A program made the position numbers and the translations under genes. Shown in pieces: positions 8,595 through 64,000 of a stretch of 64,000 bases of DNA. How positions within the stretch are numbered: the stretch's first letter is position 1; every line of letters starts with the position of its first letter. The stretch covers positions 124,001 to 188,000 of the forward strand of contig NZ_FRAU01000006.1 in assembly GCF_900142415.1 (NCBI RefSeq). The letters are read 5' to 3'. Under the pieces are notes generated by a model. The model did no database searches. It worked only from the letters and a program-made list of their open reading frames with translations, and was not told the origin of the DNA. The stretch is from Rhodothermus profundi (lineage in GTDB: Bacteria; Bacteroidota; Rhodothermia; Rhodothermales; Rhodothermaceae).

Positions 8595-10311
8595 TCCGGA
8601 GTCCCCAGGCCTGGGGCTCTTCGGGTTCGGGATATTCGAACTGACCATAGGCATGCGAAAAATCGGTCCGAAAGTGCGCCGTGTATGATCCGGGTGGCAG
8701 CGTCAGCGTCGTATCCGCCAGCCGATTGCGGGCGTCTCCTCCGGCAGGGCGGGTGTGCTCCCAGGTCATTTCCCAGACGATCTCACCGGTGCCGGCGCGT
8801 TCAATCCATCCGTAATCATACCGGCCACTGATCGATAATTCTCCAACTGCCCGAATGCGCAGCCGCGTGGGCCTGGTTAAGGTAAACGCCTGAACGCGAT
8901 GTTCGTTGTTCCCAACACGGGTTAAGTCGACCAGTACCCGGCCACCTGACTGAGAAGCTTCCGGTATGGGCTCCTGTTCAGCTACTGGAGGGACTGTCGG
9001 CATCAGAATGTGCTGTTGTTGCTGGGGACTCAGGACAAACAGCGTGACCCCCCAGCGCCCGGGATGCTCGGGGCGTCCGTTGCGCCAGTCTCCATAGGCG
9101 TGCGAGTTATCCGTGCGATAATGCAGCGTGTAGCGACCGGGTGCCAGCCTTAGCGCAGCAATCTCCAGCCGATTGTTGGGATGGCCGCCGGCCGGCACGG
9201 AACGGCTTCGAGCCATTTCCCAGACGATTACGCCGGTGCTGTCGGTCAGCCAGGCATAGTCGTAGCGTCGATTCCGCGTGCCCAGCTCTCCCAGCGCGTA
9301 GAGTAGCACCGCCGTGGTATCCGTTACTTCAAAGCCAACCGCGCGATTTTCGTTGTTTCCCACAGCGGTCAATTGAAGCACTGGTTGCAGGTCGGTCCAG
9401 GGATCCACAAGCGTCACACTTGTATCTTCGGGGTGCAACCGCCAGAGGGTTATGCCCCAGGCAGCGGGATCATACGGTGGGTTGCGTCGCCAGTTGCCAA
9501 AGGCATGCGCGGCATCCGTCTGGAACCAGACGCGATACAGCCCGGGGGCCAGACTTAACGTGTCGCGCACCTGGCGATTGCCTATCCAGCCACCAGCGGG
9601 CTGGCTCTGCGCATGCGTCATTTCCCAGACACGTTGCCCCTCAGGAAGCCGCTCAATCCATCCGTAGTCGGCCGGATTCGGATCGAACTCTCCCACCGCA
9701 TAGAGTCGCACTCGTGCAGGTTGCCGAACATGCAGCAGCGCCATGCGGGCGGTAGCCGAAGGCATAGGAGCCGCTGTCCAGAGCAGTGCAGGGCCGTCCG
9801 GTGCCTGGAGTTGACCGTCTTCCAGCCAGAGCAAAGCAGCTTCGTCCAGCACCCAGAAGCGTAGCGTCCACTCTTGGCGGCTCCGCGTCCAGGGCGGCCT
9901 AGGCGTCAGCCACGTCCAGAAGCCGGTTCGAGGTGGCACATTACCCTGCGTAGTAAAGAAAACCTCATAGCGACCGGGTGCCAACTGAAGCGTATCACGC
10001 ACCCGGAAACGAAGCGATCTGGTTCCAGGCGGCGGTTGCATCTTCCAGACAACGCGACGATCCGACGCGCGCAGGAGCCATCCATACGCCGCAAGCGCGC
10101 CATCTGAGCGGGCCCCGACGCCTTCCAACAGAAGCCGAACCGGACGTTCGATCACCAGTGTTCGATGGTAGAGCATGCCCGGTGCCATGTCGGAAAACAC
10201 AACAACTTCCCCTGCAGGCAACTCCTGTCGCTGGCAGGCGCGAAGGCCTACCAGCAGCATCAGCAGCATCAGCACCGCAAGCTGCCAGCGTATCAGGGTC
10301 GTGCGCGACAT
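8575..10311 (-). CDS. Exported protein with four copies of a ~110-residue beta module
   Basis: 578 residues; not recognised as a named family. The N-terminus (MSRTTLIRWQLAVLMLLMLL then VGLRACQRQ) is a signal peptide, perhaps a lipoprotein signal ending LRAC. Four related modules follow at about residues 35-125, 189-300, 316-430 and 462-575. Each reads roughly: 'VGE..DYGWIE....VWEM', 'PAGG..NR...TL.LAPG.Y', 'RTD.SHAYG.W' and 'P..WGITL..L'. The first is the most divergent and lacks the SHAYG block. Invariant Trp, Gly and aromatic residues suggest a beta-sandwich sensor or adhesion module. It leads the minus-strand run prmA-ppx-mrp-nfu. A stretch rich in Q, P and E at about 435-455 links modules 3 and 4. 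Confidence 0.75.
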   Translation of the reverse strand: MSRTTLIRWQLAVLMLLMLLVGLRACQRQELPAGEVVVFSDMAPGMLYHRTLVIERPVRLLLEGVGARSDGALAAYGWLLRASDRRVVWKMQPPPGTRSLRFRVRDTLQLAPGRYEVFFTTQGNVPPRTGFWTWLTPRPPWTRSRQEWTLRFWVLDEAALLWLEDGQLQAPDGPALLWTAAPMPSATARMALLHVRQPARVRLYAVGEFDPNPADYGWIERLPEGQRVWEMTHAQSQPAGGWIGNRQVRDTLSLAPGLYRVWFQTDAAHAFGNWRRNPPYDPAAWGITLWRLHPEDTSVTLVDPWTDLQPVLQLTAVGNNENRAVGFEVTDTTAVLLYALGELGTRNRRYDYAWLTDSTGVIVWEMARSRSVPAGGHPNNRLEIAALRLAPGRYTLHYRTDNSHAYGDWRNGRPEHPGRWGVTLFVLSPQQQQHILMPTVPPVAEQEPIPEASQSGGRVLVDLTRVGNNEHRVQAFTLTRPTRLRIRAVGELSISGRYDYGWIERAGTGEIVWEMTWEHTRPAGGDARNRLADTTLTLPPGSYTAHFRTDFSHAYGQFEYPEPEEPQAWGLRIERLDL

Positions 10312-54142: not shown

Positions 54143-55009
54143 ATGAGCGAACCGGTTGATCAGTTGCTCCACCTGCTTAACCTGGAACGCATTGAAGAGA
54201 ATATTTTTCGCGGTCCGAGCCGCGACATTGGCAGTCCTACCGTGTTTGGCGGGCAGGTGCTTGGCCAGGCGCTTCGGGCGGCGGCCTATACCGTGCCTGC
54301 CGAACGGCAGATTCATTCCCTGCATGCGTATTTCATTCTCCCTGGTGATCCTAATGCGCCAATTGTTTACTTAGTGGAACGGCTGCGTGACGGACGGAGC
54401 TTTACCACGCGGCGCGTTACGGCCATTCAGCATGGCCGTCCAATTTTCAACCTATCCGCTTCGTTCCAGATTGACGAAATGGGCGTGGAGCATCAGGACC
54501 CCATGCCCGAGGTGCCCCCTCCTGAAGAACTGCCCTCCGAAGCGGAGCTGCGTCGCCAGTTGGCCGAGCAGGTGCCCGAAGTGCTGCGTCCGTTTTTACT
54601 CCACGAGCGGCCTATTGAGATTCGTCCCGTTGAGCCTGTTCATCTGCTTTTCCCGGAAAAGCGACCGCCCCGCCGTCACGCCTGGATCCGTGCGGCCGGA
54701 ACGCTCCCTCCTAACGACTCGGCCCTGCACCAGAGCGTGCTGGCCTATGCTTCGGATTTTGGCTTTATGGGCACAGCCATGCTGCCACATGGTCTTTCAT
54801 TCCTGCAACCCCACGTGCAGGCGGCCAGCCTGGATCATGCCATGTGGTTCTACCGTCCTTTTCGCGCCGATGAGTGGCTGCTGTTTGCCATGGAAAGTCC
54901 GGTGGCCGCCCGTGCGCGCGGGCTGAACCGCGGGCTGTTTTTCCGGCGCGACGGCACGCTCGTGGCCGCCGTCGTCCAGGAAGGCCTCATGCGCATCCGC
55001 TCCGACTAG
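54143..55009 (+). CDS. tesB: Acyl-CoA thioesterase II
   Basis: 288 residues, full length for TesB with two hotdog domains. Seen: 'RDIGSPTVFGGQVLGQALRA', 'IHSLHAYFILPGDPNAPIVY', 'GRSFTTRRVTAIQHGRPIFN', then 'SALHQSVLAYASDFGFMGTA' with the active-site Asp, 'ASLDHAMWFYRPFRADEWLL', and 'SPVAARARGLNRGLFFRRDG' with the closing Gln in 'VQEGLMRIRSD'. It cleaves acyl-CoA to free acid and CoA. Its last ~145 bases occur again at 56527-56672 as part of a direct repeat. Confidence 0.95.
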   Translation: MSEPVDQLLHLLNLERIEENIFRGPSRDIGSPTVFGGQVLGQALRAAAYTVPAERQIHSLHAYFILPGDPNAPIVYLVERLRDGRSFTTRRVTAIQHGRPIFNLSASFQIDEMGVEHQDPMPEVPPPEELPSEAELRRQLAEQVPEVLRPFLLHERPIEIRPVEPVHLLFPEKRPPRRHAWIRAAGTLPPNDSALHQSVLAYASDFGFMGTAMLPHGLSFLQPHVQAASLDHAMWFYRPFRADEWLLFAMESPVAARARGLNRGLFFRRDGTLVAAVVQEGLMRIRSD

Positions 55010-55015
55010 CCCACC
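54864..55015 (+). repeat. 152-bp direct repeat, left copy (tesB 3' end / recG junction)
   Basis: Covers the last codons of tesB, its TAG stop and six further bases that equal the complement of the last recG codons. Compared by eye with 56527-56678 it shows no gaps and three mismatches (GATGAG versus GACAAG, and GCCGTC versus ACCGTC). Confidence 0.95.
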
Positions 55016-55236
55016 TATCGCCGCACAAACGTACCGCTGTATACCCAGCGTCCAGCCTCCAATCGATATACATATACCCCCGCCGGCCAATCCGCACCAA
55101 CTACTCGCAGCCGATGCCGTCCCGCCTCGTAAAACCGATCCACTGGACGCGCCACTTCCCGCCCCAACACATCAAACACCACGAGCCGCACCCGAACCGC
55201 CTCCGGCAGATCCACCTCCAGCGTGTTGGTTGATGC
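55015..55236 (-). pseudogene. Orphan secretion-tail-like C-terminal segment
   Basis: A minus-strand frame directly after the TAA of the PD40 gene, and in the same frame, reads 'ASTNTLEVDLPEAVRVRLVV', 'FDVLGREVARPVDRFY', 'EAGRHRLRVVGADWPAGVYV', 'YRLEAGRWVYSGTFVRR' and stops. This is the pattern of FlgD-like / type IX secretion C-terminal domains ('V.DVLGREV', 'LPAGVYVYRL'). It has no start of its own. The start-like 'NPASTNT' in such domains usually follows a 'YPNP' turn; here 'LP-stop-ASTNT' is read. So it is either a cut-off tail made silent by the stop or the end of a different protein joined by recombination. Confidence 0.65.
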
Positions 55237-56313
55237 TTATGGTAGCTTCCCACAGAGCAGGCAATCTCGAAGCAACGTGTCCAACGCCGGAAACACCGGC
55301 ACCGAGTCCGGCAACATCGGCCAGAGCACCTCCACGCGATCCTCCTCCAACCAGTACACAAACGGCACATTCCGCGCACCCGGACCCGCCTCCACATCCC
55401 GCAAAAAAACCACCGCCCGACCATCATAACTCCAACGAGGGTTGTGTCCCCCTCGCTCAGTCAACTGCCGCAACACCCGCCCCCGACCATCCAGCAAAAA
55501 AAGCTGCGGCACCCCCTCCACCCGACGCTCCAGCACCACCTCATCCCCCACCGGACTGGGCGCTACCGAAAACGTAAAGGCCTCCTCCGAACCAAAATCC
55601 GTCAACACACGCAACTCCCCCGTCCCAAACTCATAACGCACTACATTCTCCCGATAAACGCCCCCCTCGGCCTGCGGCATGATGCCCACCGCAAACCGAT
55701 CCCGCCCCCCTGGCATCGCAGCCGTCATCGGTGCCACGGGCCCTATCGCCCTCCTGAGCACCAGATCCAGCACATAGGCTCCCCCCCGATAGGGCTGATC
55801 CCGCGGCTCCAACACCACCGACACCAAAAGTCGCCTGCCATCCCGAAACCAGTGCGGAAACGTGGCCGTCGGATGCGACAACAGTAAACTGTCCAGTCCC
55901 GTCCAAACCGCTACCCGACCACTCCCCAAATCCAACGTCACTACATAAGAATCACAACATAGGCTCGGTTCGTAGCTCAACGCCAGCCGCTTTCCATCGG
56001 GGGACCAATCCACACTGCCAATGCCTGCCCCTAAAAAACGTAGCTGCCGACCATCCCGACTGACCAACCAGAGCTGATTGGGCGGATCCAGCCGACCCGG
56101 CGTATACGCCCGGATCAATGCCACCCACCGACCATCAGGCGAAAAACGCAAATTAAACAGACTCTCCGTGCCAGGAAGCGGATCTCCCCCATAATCAAAC
56201 TGCCCGTCCTGATCCGACTCAACAAACGAACACGCCGACACCAACAACACCCCCCAAACCCCCAACCATCCTCCGCTAAGCCAGCCGTATGGCCCCTTCC
56301 CCAATCTCATCAA
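55237..56313 (-). CDS. PD40/TolB-like beta-propeller lipoprotein
   Basis: 358 residues from ATG 56313 as drawn (MMRLGKGPYGWLSGGWLGVW..LVSAC); GGAGG upstream of a TTG at 56262 makes MGVWGVLLVSAC a likely alternative. The lipobox is VSAC. Propeller-like repeats of the WD40/PD40 type are seen: 'FNLRFSPDGRWVALIRAYTP', 'GIGSVDWSPDGKRLALSYEP', 'FPHWFRDGRRLLVSVVLEP' and 'GGHNPRWSYDGRAVVFLRDV'. Such proteins sit on the periplasmic face of the outer membrane. The gene lies alone between two copies of the tesB/recG junction. Two Cys pairs ('PSLCCDSY', 'RDCLLCG') are notable. Confidence 0.82.
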   Translation of the reverse strand: MMRLGKGPYGWLSGGWLGVWGVLLVSACSFVESDQDGQFDYGGDPLPGTESLFNLRFSPDGRWVALIRAYTPGRLDPPNQLWLVSRDGRQLRFLGAGIGSVDWSPDGKRLALSYEPSLCCDSYVVTLDLGSGRVAVWTGLDSLLLSHPTATFPHWFRDGRRLLVSVVLEPRDQPYRGGAYVLDLVLRRAIGPVAPMTAAMPGGRDRFAVGIMPQAEGGVYRENVVRYEFGTGELRVLTDFGSEEAFTFSVAPSPVGDEVVLERRVEGVPQLFLLDGRGRVLRQLTERGGHNPRWSYDGRAVVFLRDVEAGPGARNVPFVYWLEEDRVEVLWPMLPDSVPVFPALDTLLRDCLLCGKLP

Positions 56314-56526
56314 AGAAATGTTGCGTTGGTCCCAGAATCTGAGAAAACTGCTTTGCTGAAATGCCTCCTAAGGCTTCTAGACCTGTGTAAGAAAGAAATT
56401 CCTCTCGGTCAATACCTAAATGTCGCCCCATTGCTGCTTGTTCAACCAGGCCCTTCCCATGCCTCTGCTTCCAACATTGGCATGGAGGCTTACTTGAGCA
56501 AATGCGACAGCCTCCAATGCTACCAT
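56276..56526 (-). pseudogene. Frameshifted remnant upstream of the PD40 gene
   Basis: On the minus strand one frame reads 'MVALEAVAFAQVSLHANVGS' and 'RGMGRAWLNKQQWGDI', then a stop; a second frame continues 'MGRHLGIDREEFLSYTGLEA', 'LGGISAKQFSQILGPTQHFF' and 'DEIGEGAIRLA'. Joined by a one-base shift near 56425 they make a coherent protein of about 80 residues. I do not recognise the family. It ends within the start region of the PD40 gene and begins at the right-hand repeat copy, so it belongs to the inserted block. Confidence 0.4.
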
Positions 56527-56678
56527 GCGCCGACAAGTGGCTGCTGTTTGCCATGGAAAGTCCGGTGGCCGCCCGTGCGCGCGGGCTGAACCGCGGGCTG
56601 TTTTTCCGGCGCGACGGCACGCTCGTGGCCACCGTCGTCCAGGAAGGCCTCATGCGCATCCGCTCCGACTAGCCCACC
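56527..56678 (+). repeat. 152-bp direct repeat, right copy (native tesB/recG junction)
   Basis: Second copy of 54864-55015. It keeps the frame of the TesB C-terminus ('WLLFAMESPVAARARG' to 'VQEGLMRIRSD') without the rest of the gene, and runs into the functional 3' end of recG. The two stop codons overlap within CTAG (56669-56672). Confidence 0.95.
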
Positions 56679-58771
56679 CGGGCGAATCCCAGTGACTGCG
56701 TGGCGTAGAAGCGGTTGTAGTAGGCGCGAAGAGTGGCGTGCTCGGGCGCTTCCAGCTTTGGATCGCGGCGGATCAGTTCAAAGGCGGCCTCGCGTGCTTT
56801 AACCAGAATAGGCTGGTCCTGCGTGATGTCGGCAATTTTCAGGTCTGGCAGCCCACTCTGGCGCGTGCCGAAGAAGTCTCCAGCGCCCCGGAGCTTCAGA
56901 TCCATTTCACTAATCTTGAAGCCATCGTCTGTCTCGGCCATCACCTGCAGGCGCGTTTCCGCTTCGGCCGTACGTCGGTGGTCCACCATCAGAATGCAGT
57001 AGCTCTGCTCGGCGCCGCGTCCGACGCGTCCCCTAAGCTGATGGAGCTGGCTGAGCCCGAAGCGTTCGGCATGTTCAATGATCATGACGGTTGCATTGGG
57101 CACGTCCACCCCTACCTCAATCACCGTGGTAGCTACCAGGATGTCCGTCTCGCCATTTTTGAAGCGTTCCATGGCCTCTTCCTTCTCGTAGGGGAGCATG
57201 CGGCCGTGGATCAGGTCCACCCGATAGGGGCGAAATAGCTCCTTGAGTCGCCGGTAGCCATTTTCTGCATCCTGCAGGTCCATCTTTTCACTTTCCTCGA
57301 CCAGCGGATAGACCACGTAGGCCTGGCGTCCTTGCCGGAGCTGCTCCTTCAGAAAAGCATACACTTCGCCTCGCCGTTTTTCGGAGCGGATCCAGGTAAT
57401 CACCGGTTTGCGACCGGACGGCCGTTCGTCGATAATCGACACGTCCAGATCGCCGTAGAGCGTCATGGCCAGGGAGCGCGGGATCGGCGTGGCCGTCATG
57501 AGCAGCATGTGCGGATTTTCGCCTTTGCTGAACAGTTCAGCCCGTTGCACCACGCCAAAGCGGTGCTGCTCGTCCACAATGGCCAGGCCCAGCCGCTGAA
57601 ACTGCACGCTTTCCTGAATCACCGCATGCGTGCCCACGGCCACATGGGCACGCCCTTCAGCCAGATCGGCCAGGATTTCTTCCCGAAGCGACTTGCGCTG
57701 GCCGCCGAGCAGCAGCCGCACCTCGACTCCCAGCGGATCCAGGTAGCGGCGCATATTCGCGTAGTGCTGTTCGGCCAGGATCTCGGTAGGCACCATAAAC
57801 GCACTCTGGTAGCCATTGTCCACGGCATGCAGAATGGCTGCCATGGCTACCACGGTCTTGCCGCTGCCCACGTCGCCCTGGATGAGCCGGTTCATCTGGA
57901 GGCCTGACATGGTGTCGCGGAGGATATCCTCAAGGGCTCGCTTTTGCGCGCCGGTCAGCTCGAAGGGCAGCACTTCGTTCAGAAAGCGATGGAAGCGCTC
58001 GCCCGGTGGGCCAAAGCGCGGTCCGGCCACTGCCTGCCGGATCTGCTTTGTGCGGGCCAGCATGAGCTGAATAAAGAAAAGCTCTTCAAACTTGAGTCGT
58101 TCACGCGCGCGCGCCAGTTCGGTCTGGCTGCGCGGAAAGTGCACAGCACGCAGCGCCACGCGCCCATCGATTAAGTCGTAGCGGGTGCGAATCCACTCCG
58201 GCAGAATCTCCGGAAGCTTCAGACCATGCTGTTTGAAGAACGTGTACAGGATGCGTCGGAACGTTCGGCTGGTCAGGCCGACCTTCTCAAGGGCTGCCCC
58301 GCCTGGATAGAGCGCAATGATGCGGCCCGTTGCCAGCGCTGCTCCCTCCCCGTCGAGCCGGTCAAAGTCCGGATGCGTCATTGACAACGTATACCCGAAG
58401 CGCTGCACCTTGCCGTGAAAGGCCACCCGGTCGCCGGGCTTGAACGCCTTTGAAACCCATCCCAGGCGGTTAAACCAGACGCACTTTAGCCGGCCGCCGC
58501 TTTCGTCTTCCAGAACCAGTTCAAACCGCTTGCGGCCTTTTCCTTCGACAATCCCTGCTGCGCGCACCGTCCCCACCACCGTTACTGCGCCCATGCGCTC
58601 ATCCAGTCGCCGCAGCGGCACGATCGTCGAGCGGTCCAGGTATCGCCGCGGAAAGTAGTGCAGCAGGTCACGCACCGTATGAACGTCCACCTGGGCTAGC
58701 GCCGCGGCCCGACGCGGCCCAACGCCAGCCAAGTAGCGCACCTCAGTTGCCAGAATATTCAGATCGGCCAC
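56669..58771 (-). CDS. recG: ATP-dependent DNA helicase RecG
   Basis: 700 residues from GTG 58771 (VADLNILATEVRYLAGVGPR); the frame is open to 58948 but the extra part is not RecG-like. The wedge/OB domain is N-terminal ('DLLHYFPRRYLDRSTIV', 'VFNRLGWVSKAFKPGDRVAF' region). Helicase motifs: Walker A 'LIQGDVGSGKTVVAMAAIL' near 295, DEQH box 'AIVDEQHRFGVVQRAELF' near 398, 'LMTATPIPRSLAMTLYGDLD', 'VATTVIEVGVDVPNATVMII' and 'LRGRVGRGAEQSYCIL' near 580. RecG remodels stalled replication forks. Its 3' end abuts the repeat at 56527-56678. Upstream lies a 33-base perfect hairpin. Confidence 0.95.
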   Translation of the reverse strand: MADLNILATEVRYLAGVGPRRAAALAQVDVHTVRDLLHYFPRRYLDRSTIVPLRRLDERMGAVTVVGTVRAAGIVEGKGRKRFELVLEDESGGRLKCVWFNRLGWVSKAFKPGDRVAFHGKVQRFGYTLSMTHPDFDRLDGEGAALATGRIIALYPGGAALEKVGLTSRTFRRILYTFFKQHGLKLPEILPEWIRTRYDLIDGRVALRAVHFPRSQTELARARERLKFEELFFIQLMLARTKQIRQAVAGPRFGPPGERFHRFLNEVLPFELTGAQKRALEDILRDTMSGLQMNRLIQGDVGSGKTVVAMAAILHAVDNGYQSAFMVPTEILAEQHYANMRRYLDPLGVEVRLLLGGQRKSLREEILADLAEGRAHVAVGTHAVIQESVQFQRLGLAIVDEQHRFGVVQRAELFSKGENPHMLLMTATPIPRSLAMTLYGDLDVSIIDERPSGRKPVITWIRSEKRRGEVYAFLKEQLRQGRQAYVVYPLVEESEKMDLQDAENGYRRLKELFRPYRVDLIHGRMLPYEKEEAMERFKNGETDILVATTVIEVGVDVPNATVMIIEHAERFGLSQLHQLRGRVGRGAEQSYCILMVDHRRTAEAETRLQVMAETDDGFKISEMDLKLRGAGDFFGTRQSGLPDLKIADITQDQPILVKAREAAFELIRRDPKLEAPEHATLRAYYNRFYATQSLGFARVG

Positions 58772-58876
58772 GCCAGCTGTTTCGTACGATTGCGCTCTGC
58801 GACAATTTAACGCATTTTTTTGGCCAGCACATCCCTGGCGTTTCGCCCTTTTCCCAACGTTAGATAAACAACAAAG

Positions 58877-58909
58877 CTGCGCGGTCTGTGCATGGCACAG
58901 ACCGCGCAG
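58877..58909. promoter_or_regulatory. Perfect 14-bp inverted repeat in divergent spacer
   Basis: CTGCGCGGTCTGTG (58877-58890) and CACAGACCGCGCAG (58896-58909) flank CATGG. It lies between the start of recG and the small secreted protein gene at 59045. On the minus strand it is followed by CTTTGTTGTTT, so it could act as a weak terminator or leader hairpin upstream of recG; as an operator it is also possible. Function not determined. Confidence 0.55.
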
Positions 58910-59044
58910 GCCTCGAACAACTCTTTTATTTTTCTGATGCTGCTTCAAACGGCAACTTCTCTTCTCGGTGTCCGTAGGCTTTTAAAGATCCAGCTCGTGC
59001 AGTGGGTCTCCGGACTTTTTCTACTCACTAAACGGAGACGTGTT

Positions 59045-59482
59045 ATGTGTGGACGTTTATCGGGACGCGTGCTGATGCTGCTGATCGGCTCGTTGATGCT
59101 AACCGCAACAGTTGTTGCGCAAGACCGCTTCTCAGACAACGATGCCGACTGGTGGCATCGCGTAGCGTTACAGGCAGCGGCAAACGTTGGCAGCGACGAT
59201 GCAGAAATTCAGCAAATCGGCCTTGAGAACTTGATCTTTCTCACCGTTTTTTACCGCGAACAGCTTCCCATGGATTACCTGTTTCAGGCGGTTGTCGCGG
59301 CCTACCAGCAGGCGCCCACGGAAGTGAACCGGACGTTGGCCCGAGCTGCCTTAATCAGCATCGGCACCCCCGCTGCTATAGCTCACCTGCATAGCAATGG
59401 CTCCCGAAGACAGGAGCAACTGGCTCGCGTCGAGCTGATCCGCGTATTGCAGGACCAACGCGCACATGTTAATCAGTTCTAA
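59045..59482 (+). CDS. Small secreted helical protein
   Basis: 145 residues from ATG 59045, with GGAG eight bases upstream; the frame is open to 58892 but that part lacks coding character. Signal peptide MCGRLSGRVLMLLIGSLMLT ending at 'VVAQ'. The mature part is helical ('VALQAAANVGSDDAEIQQIG', 'FQAVVAAYQQAPTEVNRTLA'), reminiscent of HEAT-like repeat arrangement, but too short to assign. It lies alone before the peroxiredoxin gene. Function unknown. Confidence 0.7.
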   Translation: MCGRLSGRVLMLLIGSLMLTATVVAQDRFSDNDADWWHRVALQAAANVGSDDAEIQQIGLENLIFLTVFYREQLPMDYLFQAVVAAYQQAPTEVNRTLARAALISIGTPAAIAHLHSNGSRRQEQLARVELIRVLQDQRAHVNQF

Positions 59483-59620
59483 TCCTAAATTTCGCAACCA
59501 GGTCCTTCCCAGGGGCATAGCATATGCTGTGTCCCTGATTTTATATTGGGGCTAGCCGGAAACTCCGGCCGCTCAAAAGCTTTTTTCCCAAACACGCTAC
59601 CCAATCTTTTCCTGATCACC

Positions 59621-60136
59621 ATGACACCTGTATTGCTGAGCATGCTGCTGTTTTTTGGTTGGAGCAAAGCCGATCGCCCCAAAGTCGGGGATCCGGCACC
59701 CGAATTCGAGGCCCAGGCGACGGGCGGTAAAACGATTCGCTTAAGCGACCTGCGTGGTCAATGGGTCGTGCTCTACTTCTATCCCAAGTCGTTCACGCCG
59801 GGATGCACAGCCGAAGCCTGCACGTTACGAGACGCCTACGAGCAAATCCAATCACTGGATGCTATTATTCTGGGCGTCAGTCTGGACAATCTTGAAACCC
59901 AGGAACGATTCAAAGCCAAGTACAAGCTTCCTTTCGACCTGATCAGTGACGATGACAAGAAGATTGCAAGAGCGTATGGCGTGCTGGGCATCGGCGGGCT
60001 GTATGCCAGACGCGTTACGTTTTTGATCGATCCGGAGGGACGCATAGCCCACATTTTCGAAGAGGTTGATCCGGCGCGCCACGACCACGAGGTGTACGAA
60101 ATGCTCAAGAAACTGCAGGCAACCGCTAAATCCTGA
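59621..60136 (+). CDS. Peroxiredoxin, BCP/AhpC-TSA family
   Basis: 171 residues from ATG 59621. A short N-terminal hydrophobic segment (MTPVLLSMLLFFGWSKA) suggests export or membrane anchoring, which is unusual for BCP. Peroxidatic Cys and resolving Cys are in 'FTPGCTAEACTLRDAYEQIQ', four residues between them as in BCP. 'GDPAPEFEAQATGGKTIRLS', 'WVVLYFYPKSFTPGC', 'LGVSLDNLETQERFKAKYKL' and 'VTFLIDPEGRIAHIFEEVD' complete the thioredoxin fold. It reduces peroxides using thiols. A strong hairpin follows. Confidence 0.92.
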   Translation: MTPVLLSMLLFFGWSKADRPKVGDPAPEFEAQATGGKTIRLSDLRGQWVVLYFYPKSFTPGCTAEACTLRDAYEQIQSLDAIILGVSLDNLETQERFKAKYKLPFDLISDDDKKIARAYGVLGIGGLYARRVTFLIDPEGRIAHIFEEVDPARHDHEVYEMLKKLQATAKS

Positions 60137-60153
60137 TCGGCTTCCGTCCTTTA

Positions 60154-60184
60154 CAGCAAAGCCCCCGGGCCGGGGGCTTTGCTG
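60154..60184. terminator. Hairpin terminator between peroxiredoxin and tRNA
   Basis: CAGCAAAGCCCCCGG and CCGGGGGCTTTGCTG are exact complements around one central base, giving a long GC-rich hairpin. T-runs beside it are short (CTTTGCTGTT on plus, CTTTGCTGTAAAGG on minus). It probably ends both the peroxiredoxin transcript and the tRNA transcript. Confidence 0.75.
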
Positions 60185-60199
60185 TTCTGGGGTTACCGG

Positions 60200-60272
60200 T
60201 GGGCCCGGCAGGATTCGAACCTGCGACCGTCGGATTATGAGTCCGCTGCTCTAACCGCTGAGCTACGGGCCC
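60200..60272 (-). tRNA. tRNA with CAT anticodon (Ile2-type or Met)
   Basis: 73 bases on the minus strand. Acceptor arms GGGCCCG and CGGGCCC pair over seven positions; the D-arm is GTAGCTCAGCGGTTAGAGC and the T-arm loop GGTTCGAATCC is canonical. The anticodon loop CTCATAA carries CAT. The GGGCCC acceptor and overall sequence resemble isoleucine tRNA that is modified to lysidine at C34, but elongator methionine tRNA cannot be ruled out by eye. The 3' end continues ACCG, so the CCA is not fully encoded. Confidence 0.93.
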
Positions 60273-60487
60273 CTTCTGCCGCGGAAAGCAACCGCCAAGG
60301 CGGGCTTCAGGATCCCGTCTTGCGCACTTTCTAAATTTTTAAGCACCGCTCTGGCCGTTGCCTCAAATGCTTCATTTTTTCTTCCAACACACCGGAACCC
60401 CTTTCATTCAACATAATTTTTCAGGCAAGTAAAACAAAGGACAAACTTATTTCATCAACTTGTCTTTTAACCTGTATCAATTGAGCC

Positions 60488-60991
60488 ATGAGCGCGGTAG
60501 AACGTATCGATGAAATCGATGTCCGCATCCTGGAGCTCCTCCAGGAGCACGGGCGCATGAAACGCAACCGCATTGCGGAAGAAGTTGGCCTGTCGGTCCC
60601 TTCCGTCAGCGAGCGCATGCGCAAGCTGGAAGAACGCGGGGTCATTACGGGCTACCATGCGGTGCTGGACCATAAGCGCCTGCATTTCGATATCACGGCC
60701 TTCATTCGCGTGATCGTAGACGGCTCGGAGCACTATCCGGAGTTCATCCGTCGCGCCTGCGCGCTGGACGAAGTGCTGGAGGTGCATTCAATCACCGGAG
60801 AAGGCTCGCACATTCTGAAGGTGCGCACGCGCAACACCACAACGCTAGAACGCCTGCTTTCGCGCATTCAGTCGTGGCCCGGCGTGCACGGCACCATCAC
60901 CAGCATTGTGCTGAGCACCTTCAAGGAAACGCGCCGTCTTCCCGTGGTGCCCACCGAACTGGTCCCCGTCGAAGCCTTTGAAATGCCCTGA
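60488..60991 (+). CDS. Lrp/AsnC family transcriptional regulator
   Basis: 167 residues. The N-terminal helix-turn-helix is 'IDEIDVRILELLQEHGRMKR', 'NRIAEEVGLSVPSVSERMRK' and 'LEERGVITGYHAVLDHKRLH'; the C-terminal RAM/AsnC effector domain is 'ALDEVLEVHSITGEGSHILK' and 'LERLLSRIQSWPGVHGTITS'. Such proteins sense amino acids. It is 27 bases upstream of glnN on the same strand, so it likely controls nitrogen assimilation through this operon (inference). The C-terminus has a ~20-residue extension after 'STFKETRRLP'. Confidence 0.93.
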   Translation: MSAVERIDEIDVRILELLQEHGRMKRNRIAEEVGLSVPSVSERMRKLEERGVITGYHAVLDHKRLHFDITAFIRVIVDGSEHYPEFIRRACALDEVLEVHSITGEGSHILKVRTRNTTTLERLLSRIQSWPGVHGTITSIVLSTFKETRRLPVVPTELVPVEAFEMP

Positions 60992-61018
60992 CCTACGCCC
61001 GCAAACTGATCTACTGCC

Positions 61019-63223
61019 ATGAACAAACTATTGCTCGACTACAATGTGCTGGCGGCGACCAAAACGCGCCAGGCGCTCAACGGGTCGCGCCCCCAGCAAT
61101 CGCAGCCCATGGACATTGAGCGCATCTTCGGCGAGAACGTCTTCTCGCTGGAGGAAATGAAAAACCGGCTGCCTCGGAAGGGTTACGAAAGTCTGCTGGC
61201 TACCATTGAGAAAGGAGAGCCCCTCTCGCCGGAAATAGCCGACACGGTGGCCCTGGCCATGAAAGAATGGGCCATTGAAAAGGGCGCCACGCACTTCACG
61301 CACTGGTTCCAGCCCCTGACCGGCATGACCGCTGAAAAGCACGAAAGCTTCATTACGCCCAATAAAGGGGGCGGAGCCATGGCCGTGTTTTCGGGGCGTG
61401 ATCTGATCCAGGGCGAACCCGACGCTTCCAGCTTTCCCAGCGGCGGCCTGCGCGCTACGTTTGAGGCCCGGGGTTACACGGCCTGGGATCCCACCTCGCC
61501 CGCCTTTATCATGGAAAACCCCAATGGCGCCTACCTGGCCATCCCGACCGCCTTCGCCTCATGGACCGGCGAAGCGCTTGACCACAAAATTCCGCTGTTG
61601 CGCTCCATGCACGCGCTCGACCGACAGGCGCGCCGCGTGCTCCGGCTTTTCGGTGTGAAAAACGTTCAGAAAGTCTATCCTACAGTGGGAAGCGAACAGG
61701 AGTATTTCCTGATCGACGAAGAATTTTATTACCGCCGCCCCGACCTGATCACCTGTGGACGCACGCTCTTCGGCGCGAAACCACCCCGCGGGCAGGAAAT
61801 GGAGGACCACTACTTTGGCTCCATTCCGGAGCGGGTGCTGGCCTTCATGCTGGAGGTGGAAAAAGAACTCTATAAACTGGGCGTGCCCATCAAAACGCGC
61901 CATAACGAAGTCGCACCGAGTCAGTACGAAATTGCTCCCCTCTTTGAAAATGCCAACCTGGCAGCCGATCATCAGCAGCTCATCATGCAAACGCTGAAGA
62001 ACGTGGCGCGGCGCTACGGACTGGTCTGCCTGTTGCACGAAAAGCCCTTTGCCGGGGTCAATGGGTCCGGCAAGCATAACAACTGGTCAATGGCCACCGA
62101 TACGGGCATGAATCTGCTTGACCCGGGCGATAATCCGCACGACAACATGCAGTTCCTGTTCTTCTGCGCCGCCGTCGTACGGGCCGTCCATAAACATCAA
62201 GACCTACTGCGCATCTCTGTGGCCACAGCCGGGAACGACCATCGGCTGGGCGCCAACGAAGCGCCTCCGGCTATCATGAGCGTCTTTCTCGGGGAACAGC
62301 TTGAAGATATCTTCCATCAGCTCGAACAGGGGGGTGTTCGCGGCAGCAAACAGGGAGGGCTGCTGGGCCTGGGCGTGCCGGTGTTGCCGCCACTCCCACG
62401 CCATGCCGGCGACCGTAACCGCACCTCTCCATTTGCTTTTACCGGCAACAAGTTTGAGTTTCGCGCGGTCGGCGCCTCCCAGTCGATTTCGTTCCCGAAC
62501 ACCGTGCTCAACACCATCGTGGCCGATGCGCTCGACGACATGGCCACGATGCTTGAGGAAAAACTGAAAGCGCAGGGTCGGCGCACGAAGCGGGCTTTCG
62601 AAGAGGCTGTGGCCGACGTGCTCCGCACCGTTATCCGGGAAGCGAAGCCCATCATCTTTAACGGGGACAACTACGCCCCTGAATGGCACGCCGAAGCCGA
62701 GCGACGCGGGCTGCTCAACTTGCGCAACACGGTGGAAGCCCTGGAGCATCTGCTCGACGAAAAGAACGTCCAGCTCTTTGAACGTCACGGCGTGCTTAAT
62801 CGGCGGGAGCTGGAAAGTCGCTATGAGATCCTGCTCGACCAGTACACCAAAACGCTCAACATTGAAGCCGAAACGACTGAACACATCGCACGCACCATGA
62901 TCCTGCCAGCCGCGCTGCGGTACCTGCGCGAGCTAACCGAGACGCTCGACGAAGCCAGGGACCTGGACCTGAACGTAGTCGGCGCCCGTGAAACGGCCGA
63001 AGAAGTTGCCGCGCTGATTAACGAGCTGCGCCAGCGCCTCGATGTGCTGATCGCCGTCAATCGAAAGCGGGGCAAAACCCCTGAGGAAAACGCGCGCCAC
63101 AAGTGCTACAATGTCCTGCCAGCGATGCAGGCCGTGCGCGAAGTGGCTGATCGGCTGGAGCGCGTCGTTCCACACGACTACTGGCCCATGCCTACTTACC
63201 GCGAAATCCTCTTCGTGAAATAA
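61019..63223 (+). CDS. glnN: Glutamine synthetase type III
   Basis: 734 residues, the length and organisation of GSIII, found in Bacteroidota and related lineages. It makes glutamine from glutamate, ammonia and ATP in the cytoplasm. Seen: '[20 protein letters not shown]', '[20 protein letters not shown]', '[20 protein letters not shown]' near 224, '[20 protein letters not shown]', '[18 protein letters not shown]' near 347, '[20 protein letters not shown]' near 412, and '[20 protein letters not shown]'. It follows the Lrp/AsnC gene and ends at a strong terminator. Confidence 0.96.
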
Positions 63224-63242
63224 CTGTCGCCGTTGCTTTTTC

Positions 63243-63278
63243 CAGGCCCGCGCGGGATCGGCGCGGGCCTGTTTTTTT
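63243..63278 (+). terminator. Rho-independent terminator after glnN
   Basis: CAGGCCCGCGC (63243-63253) and GCGCGGGCCTG (63261-63271) form an 11-bp stem with loop GGGATCG, then seven T (63272-63278). It lies 19 bases after the glnN stop. Confidence 0.95.
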
Positions 63279-63330
63279 CAAGATCAATCATTACTATCTT
63301 GCCTCCCAGAGGACCGGGATAGCTGGCAAG

Positions 63331-63933
63331 ATGCGCATGTCTTCTTCTCCTTCAGCCTCCAGTGAACAGGACCGGGCCTTTGTGGCTGAGGCGCTGCAGG
63401 GCAACCAGGCCGCCTATCAGGCCTTAATGGACAAGTACCGTCCAGCCCTTCGCCGCCACATTGCCCGCCTGGTCCGAGACCCCCGCGACCTGGACGATCT
63501 CGTCCAGGAAACCTTCATCAAAGCCTTCGCTGCCCTGTCTACCTATTCCACGGAATACGCTTTTTCAACCTGGCTCTACAAAATCGCTACCAACCATGCC
63601 ATTGACTACCTGCGTCGCAAAAAGCTCAAGACCCTGTCGCTGGACGAACCGATCCATACCAAAGAAGGCACGCTGGAACGCGAACTGGCCGATACAACCT
63701 ACTTCCCTGACCGCCATATCGTAGAAGATCAGCGTCGCATGCTGCTGCAAGAAGCCATCAACGCACTGCCTGAAAAATACCGGCGCGTGATCGTGATGCG
63801 GCATCAACAGGAAAAGTCATATGAGGAAATCGCTCAGGAACTGAACCTGCCCCTGGGCACCGTCAAAGCGCATATCTTCCGGGCTCGCCGCCTCCTCTAC
63901 AAATACCTGCGCAGCAAACGAAGCAGCCTTTGA
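63331..63933 (+). CDS. ECF sigma factor
   Basis: 200 residues from ATG 63331. Region 2: 'RAFVAEALQGNQAAYQALMD', 'RDLDDLVQETFIKAFAALST', 'FSTWLYKIATNHAIDYLRRK'. Region 4: 'INALPEKYRRVIVMRHQQEK', 'SYEEIAQELNLPLGTVKAHI'. A ~30-residue linker ('SLDEPIHTKEGTLERELADT') separates them. The charged end 'YLRSKRSSL' is normal. TATCTTGC at 63295-63302 resembles the -7 element of Bacteroidota promoters. No anti-sigma gene is seen before the window ends at 64000. Confidence 0.94.
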   Translation: MRMSSSPSASSEQDRAFVAEALQGNQAAYQALMDKYRPALRRHIARLVRDPRDLDDLVQETFIKAFAALSTYSTEYAFSTWLYKIATNHAIDYLRRKKLKTLSLDEPIHTKEGTLERELADTTYFPDRHIVEDQRRMLLQEAINALPEKYRRVIVMRHQQEKSYEEIAQELNLPLGTVKAHIFRARRLLYKYLRSKRSSL

Positions 63934-64000
63934 ACTTTTTTCGTCCGAATCCCCTCCGTTTGTCCCTAACTTCCAGCGTCCCAAAAGTTGCACGCAGGAA

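Follow-up and report, generated by a model that had tools for sequence, protein, structure and literature searches.

The convergent tesB and recG genes of Rhodothermus profundi (genome G000) are separated by a cassette that carries a PD40 surface-lipoprotein gene and the relic of a secreted-protein gene, and that is bordered on either side by a copy of the tesB 3' end. The best explanation, and in our judgment a probable one, is that an insertion duplicated the tesB end, that the cassette was later transferred between two lineages of the genus, and that the two tesB ends were then homogenized by gene conversion in G000. The event is of an ordinary kind, combining gene acquisition, partial duplication and gene conversion, and has left an unusually complete record. 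It illustrates clearly that a gene may become established between housekeeping genes with no help from a mobile element, and that an old duplicated gene end may pass for a new one because gene conversion refreshes the copies. It also warns against dating an insertion from how closely its repeats agree.

A duplicated gene end at the tesB-recG junction

Positions given below refer to the window, the whole 64,000-nucleotide stretch of DNA that was analysed, which lies in contig 6 of the 3.14-Mb G000 genome. The tesB gene (54143-55009, plus strand) is intact and encodes an acyl-CoA thioesterase II-like protein (Pfam Acyl_CoA_thio, E 1e-42). The recG helicase gene occupies 56669-58948 of the minus strand in longest-ORF coordinates and matches the Pfam families RecG_wedge, DEAD and RecG_dom3_C. 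A 152-bp segment made up of the last 146 bases of tesB, TAG included, and the six bases CCCACC is found twice on the plus strand. Copy 1 (54864-55015) is the functional end of tesB with its stop and the CCCACC, and copy 2 (56527-56678) is a non-functional duplicate that runs into recG, where CCCACC forms recG codons. The stop of recG overlaps the tesB-type stop of copy 2; the tesB TAG and the recG stop share the palindrome CTAG.

The copies are in direct orientation, 1663 bp apart from start to start, and agree at 149 of 152 bases, as the first-pass annotation had reported when it described a direct repeat with three mismatches. These fall at 54871, 54872 and 54968, the first two lying at the left edge. 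The window has no other direct repeat that reaches 60 bp, and a chance origin is excluded since the next-best ungapped match to the 152-mer in 55016-64000 reaches only 64 of 152 bases. The repeat background of G000 was sampled on a 400-kb stretch; besides the tesB pair, a single close direct repeat exceeded 40 bp there, in tandem lepB genes that share an 89-bp patch. The repeat is unlikely to be an artefact of assembly, since its copies are not identical and an independently assembled congener, G003, has both the cassette and a remnant of copy 2. An Rfam search of the region matched no RNA feature.

The orthologous junction was compared in G000 and six congeners, each species being represented by one genome. 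In G001 and G006 the junction is empty and a single tesB end leads straight into recG, which bears out the earlier proposal of an insertion at this place. G003 has a cassette that matches that of G000 in position and orientation and is 83% identical to it at the DNA level; its copy 2 has decayed, about 40 bp being left on the cassette side and 41 bp on the recG side with the middle lost. The left edge of copy 2 reads GACAA in both G000 and G003, as against GAYGA in every functional tesB. Since the two genomes share the boundary between cassette and copy 2, insertion and duplication were one event that predates the separation of the two cassettes. We thus picture a fragment bearing the PD40 lipoprotein gene and a gene for an S8-fold secreted protein that would have inserted at the overlapping stops of tesB and recG; to judge from the empty sites, the insertion left behind the 152-bp duplication of the tesB end. 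Entry probably took place by homology-assisted end-joining or by a single crossover involving a molecule with a tesB end. The first-pass annotation had suggested either a single crossover or an element that regenerates a gene end; homology-based entry, by single crossover or otherwise, would fit the data, and an integrase-type system is not supported.

The junctions of G002, G004 and G005 contain unrelated small genes and have no second tesB end. All three hold a DUF2283 gene (L033:1708-2207, L035:1729-1923 and L036:1339-1551, respectively), preceded in G002 by a DUF4258 gene. Insertion at overlapping convergent stops breaks neither gene, and this would explain why different genes have landed there. 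The overlapping stop codons can be regarded as a permissive landing site where, in a single genus, unrelated genes have settled on at least two occasions. The G004 junction also bears an IS1595-type transposase insertion together with an HNH-like ORF (L035:2107-3662).

Content of the cassette

The DNA between the repeats has no relation to tesB or recG, in keeping with its initial description. Its main gene (55237-56313, minus strand) encodes a PD40/TolB-like beta-propeller lipoprotein of 358 amino acids with the lipobox LVSAC (Pfam PD40, E 6.5e-8; PF07676, 32.8 bits against a cut-off of 20.9). The protein is nearest to the TolB propellers. It is not TolB itself, since it scores 40 bits with the TolB equivalog model, which requires 343. 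A single-sequence AlphaFold model of the protein had a pLDDT of 48, too poor for a fold search, and a scan of a genome-contig collection for named relatives returned generic PD40 proteins only, at 24-41% identity. The ortholog in G003 is 90% identical at the protein level. Upstream of the gene, the non-coding end of the cassette (56314-56526) is 69% identical to its G003 counterpart.

On the other side of the lipoprotein gene lies the relic of a gene for an S8-fold protein secreted by the T9SS (55015-55215, minus strand), of which the C-terminal sorting domain alone remains. This stump of 66 residues shows 63% protein identity to residues 697-775 of a 775-amino-acid protein of G002 and matches TIGR04183 with an E value of 9e-4, below the model cut-off. 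At a G002 locus away from the tesB-recG junction (L038:1214-4622), the same lipoprotein gene is followed by the full-length gene for the 775-residue protein, which combines an S8 subtilase fold with a T9SS C-terminal domain. The usual subtilase Asp and His motifs seem to be absent from this protein in an alignment read by eye, and it may not be an active protease. In the G003 cassette, both ends of the S8-fold gene survive: the one for the signal peptide and the C-terminal part. The lipoprotein gene is intact in all six complete copies and the S8-fold gene in one; G005 lies outside these counts, since its contigs end there. For the lipoprotein gene, dN/dS between G000 and G003 is 0.15. We take this gene to be retained by purifying selection and its partner to have decayed, the S8-fold gene having apparently been largely deleted since the insertion.

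The first-pass annotation had seen no integrase or transposase, and our analysis agrees: neither was found among the ORFs and Pfam matches of the G000 cassette or among the ORFs of the G003 cassette. A transposon or insertion sequence was rejected as the source, as there is no transposase, no inverted repeat marks the cassette ends, and the duplication is 152 bp rather than short. One could also envision a site-specific integrative element of unrecognized type whose attachment site is the 3' end of tesB, rebuilt on entry. A gene 3' end is indeed directly repeated next to an intact target gene, and the same site is filled in two lineages. However, no recombinase is encoded in either cassette, and in G002, G004 and G005 the junction is filled by unrelated genes with no repeat beside them. 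Moreover, PD40 genes elsewhere lack gene-end repeats. In G002 and G004 the lipoprotein gene has two other locations, one beside a gene identified by eye as aldo/keto reductase-like and one beside tRNA-Arg. The search for repeated gene ends beside other PD40 genes that the first-pass annotation had proposed turned up none at the congener loci inspected (L038-L041). We regard such an element as very improbable. In G002, the PD40 copy lies about 270 bp from the tRNA-Arg gene (L039:937-1011), and the situation is similar in G004 (L040:865-939).

Transfer between lineages

At silent sites, the PD40 genes of G000 and G003 differ by 0.312 (95% interval 0.259-0.365), as against 0.52-0.67 for seven flanking genes. 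The silent sites of the PD40 gene are not unusually constrained, since their difference from G002 is 0.58, like that of other genes. All seven alignments examined group G003 with G006 as sisters; four of them lie near the junction, and three are of unlinked loci (rpoB, AKR and one more), where support is 98-100. At silent sites these two genomes differ by 27-46%. Taken together, the silent differences imply that the G000 and G003 cassettes parted around or after the split of G003 from G006, so that the empty site of G006 needs no loss. Reduced divergence of the cassette gene relative to its flanks, together with its absence from the sister G006, is the pattern of horizontal transfer within the genus. 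Most likely, and on the simplest account, the cassette moved between the G000 and G003 lineages after their split, landing at the same junction by way of flanking homology; homologous recombination in the junction or in the repeat would be the probable route. The argument for transfer draws largely on the silent divergence of one gene. No donor-like flank tract is visible in G003 tesB or recG next to the cassette, so any transferred flanks were very short or were overwritten. Each of the seven genomes has members of the ComEC and DprA families, which allows for natural transformation, although the two alone are no proof of competence.

The tesB end of G006 (L037) contains a stretch of about 75 bp, corresponding to window positions 54893-54967, that is 93% identical to G000 and 81% to the sister G003, set between neighbors that are G003-like at 96-100%. 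This G000-like stretch may be a footprint that a lost cassette left behind or, alternatively, a short tract of recombination. The first of these would suit a different history, in which the ancestor shared by G000, G003 and G006 received the cassette in a single insertion, which was inherited vertically and then lost precisely from G006 through recombination between the two tesB ends, the G000 copies being homogenized as in our preferred account. The empty site of G006 bears no scar, which is the expected outcome of recombination between direct repeats. This history is difficult to reconcile with a silent divergence of the PD40 gene about half that of the flanking genes, unexpected unless the cassettes recombined later. 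We consider it unlikely, yet the strongest of the competing explanations.

Age and homogenization of the repeat copies

Substitutions at 55000, 55003 and 55009 are present in both G000 copies and absent from all congeners and from copy 2 of G003. We read them as changes that arose in the G000 lineage and spread between its copies. Each G000 copy is at most 93.4% identical to any congener, and the two are 98% identical to each other. The number of differences to be expected between them was derived from the divergence of the non-coding end of the cassette, which amounts to 31% between G000 and G003, or roughly 15% per lineage. On this basis about 20 differences (about 21-23) would be expected and three are observed (Poisson P ~1e-6 for three or fewer). 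Given the shared G000-only changes and three differences where some 20 were expected, the G000 copies were homogenized after copy 2 arose, probably by gene conversion. Copies that are closer to each other within one genome than to their orthologs, and that share lineage-specific changes, are what concerted evolution by gene conversion produces. In G003, copy 2 lost its middle.

The tandem signal peptidase I (lepB) genes of G000 serve as a control. The 89-bp patch that they share (L166:8183-8271 and 9275-9363) is 98% identical amid diverged surroundings and only 80-87% identical to the congeners, each of which has its own version. The G000 genome is thus subject to gene conversion between direct repeats that lie about 1 kb from each other. 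The homogenization of the tesB ends is probably the work of ordinary DNA repair and not of mobile-element machinery. The first-pass annotation had left the choice between a recent event and homogenization; the second stands. A recent duplication is ruled out by the decayed copy 2 of G003 and by the changes common to both G000 copies.

It is also worth considering that a circle or fragment with tesB-end homology re-entered G000 recently, in which case the near-identical repeats would be the direct product of that single crossover, not of later conversion. Recombination between the copies would be expected to release a 1663-bp circle, comprising the cassette and one tesB end, that could reintegrate through the same homology, and the reduced silent divergence of the PD40 gene from G003 counts in favor of this account. 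Such re-entry, however, requires a donor tesB end that was nearly identical to that of G000 or was overwritten by it, and conversion is active in G000 in any case, as the independent lepB patch demonstrates. We find this account improbable, more so than ancestral insertion followed by loss. A bolder version would make the cassette a mobile unit free of any recombinase. The tesB-end copy would act as its homing arm, the 1.66-kb circle formed by recombination between the copies would re-enter empty tesB-recG junctions of related species, each re-entry would homogenize the repeats anew, and the PD40 lipoprotein would be kept as protection against its S8-fold secreted partner. We give this scheme little credence. 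Insertion, transfer between lineages and conversion remain our preferred sequence of events. The repeats make precise loss of the cassette possible; a function for them would be putative.

Relation to known systems

The order of a complete gene, an insert and a truncated direct duplicate is that of Campbell-type insertion-duplication, which is reversible by recombination between the repeats. An empty site with one copy of the repeat is observed here, as expected of such an event; the differences are that the homology is short (152 bp) and that no donor circle or fragment turned up. Homology-facilitated illegitimate recombination (for example PMC3240628) integrates DNA with homology at one end only and needs no recombinase. 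It is known from transformation and conjugation experiments, whereas here it would be deduced from an old product. Genomic islands moved by tyrosine recombinases restore the 3' end of their target gene and, like the cassette, leave an intact target end and direct repeats at both ends; unlike them, the cassette has no site-specific recombinase and no other element genes. With the concerted evolution of close direct repeats by gene conversion, of which the lepB genes of G000 are an example, the locus shares a short patch kept near-identical amid divergence. The tesB case differs in that one of the two copies duplicates a gene end and is non-coding.
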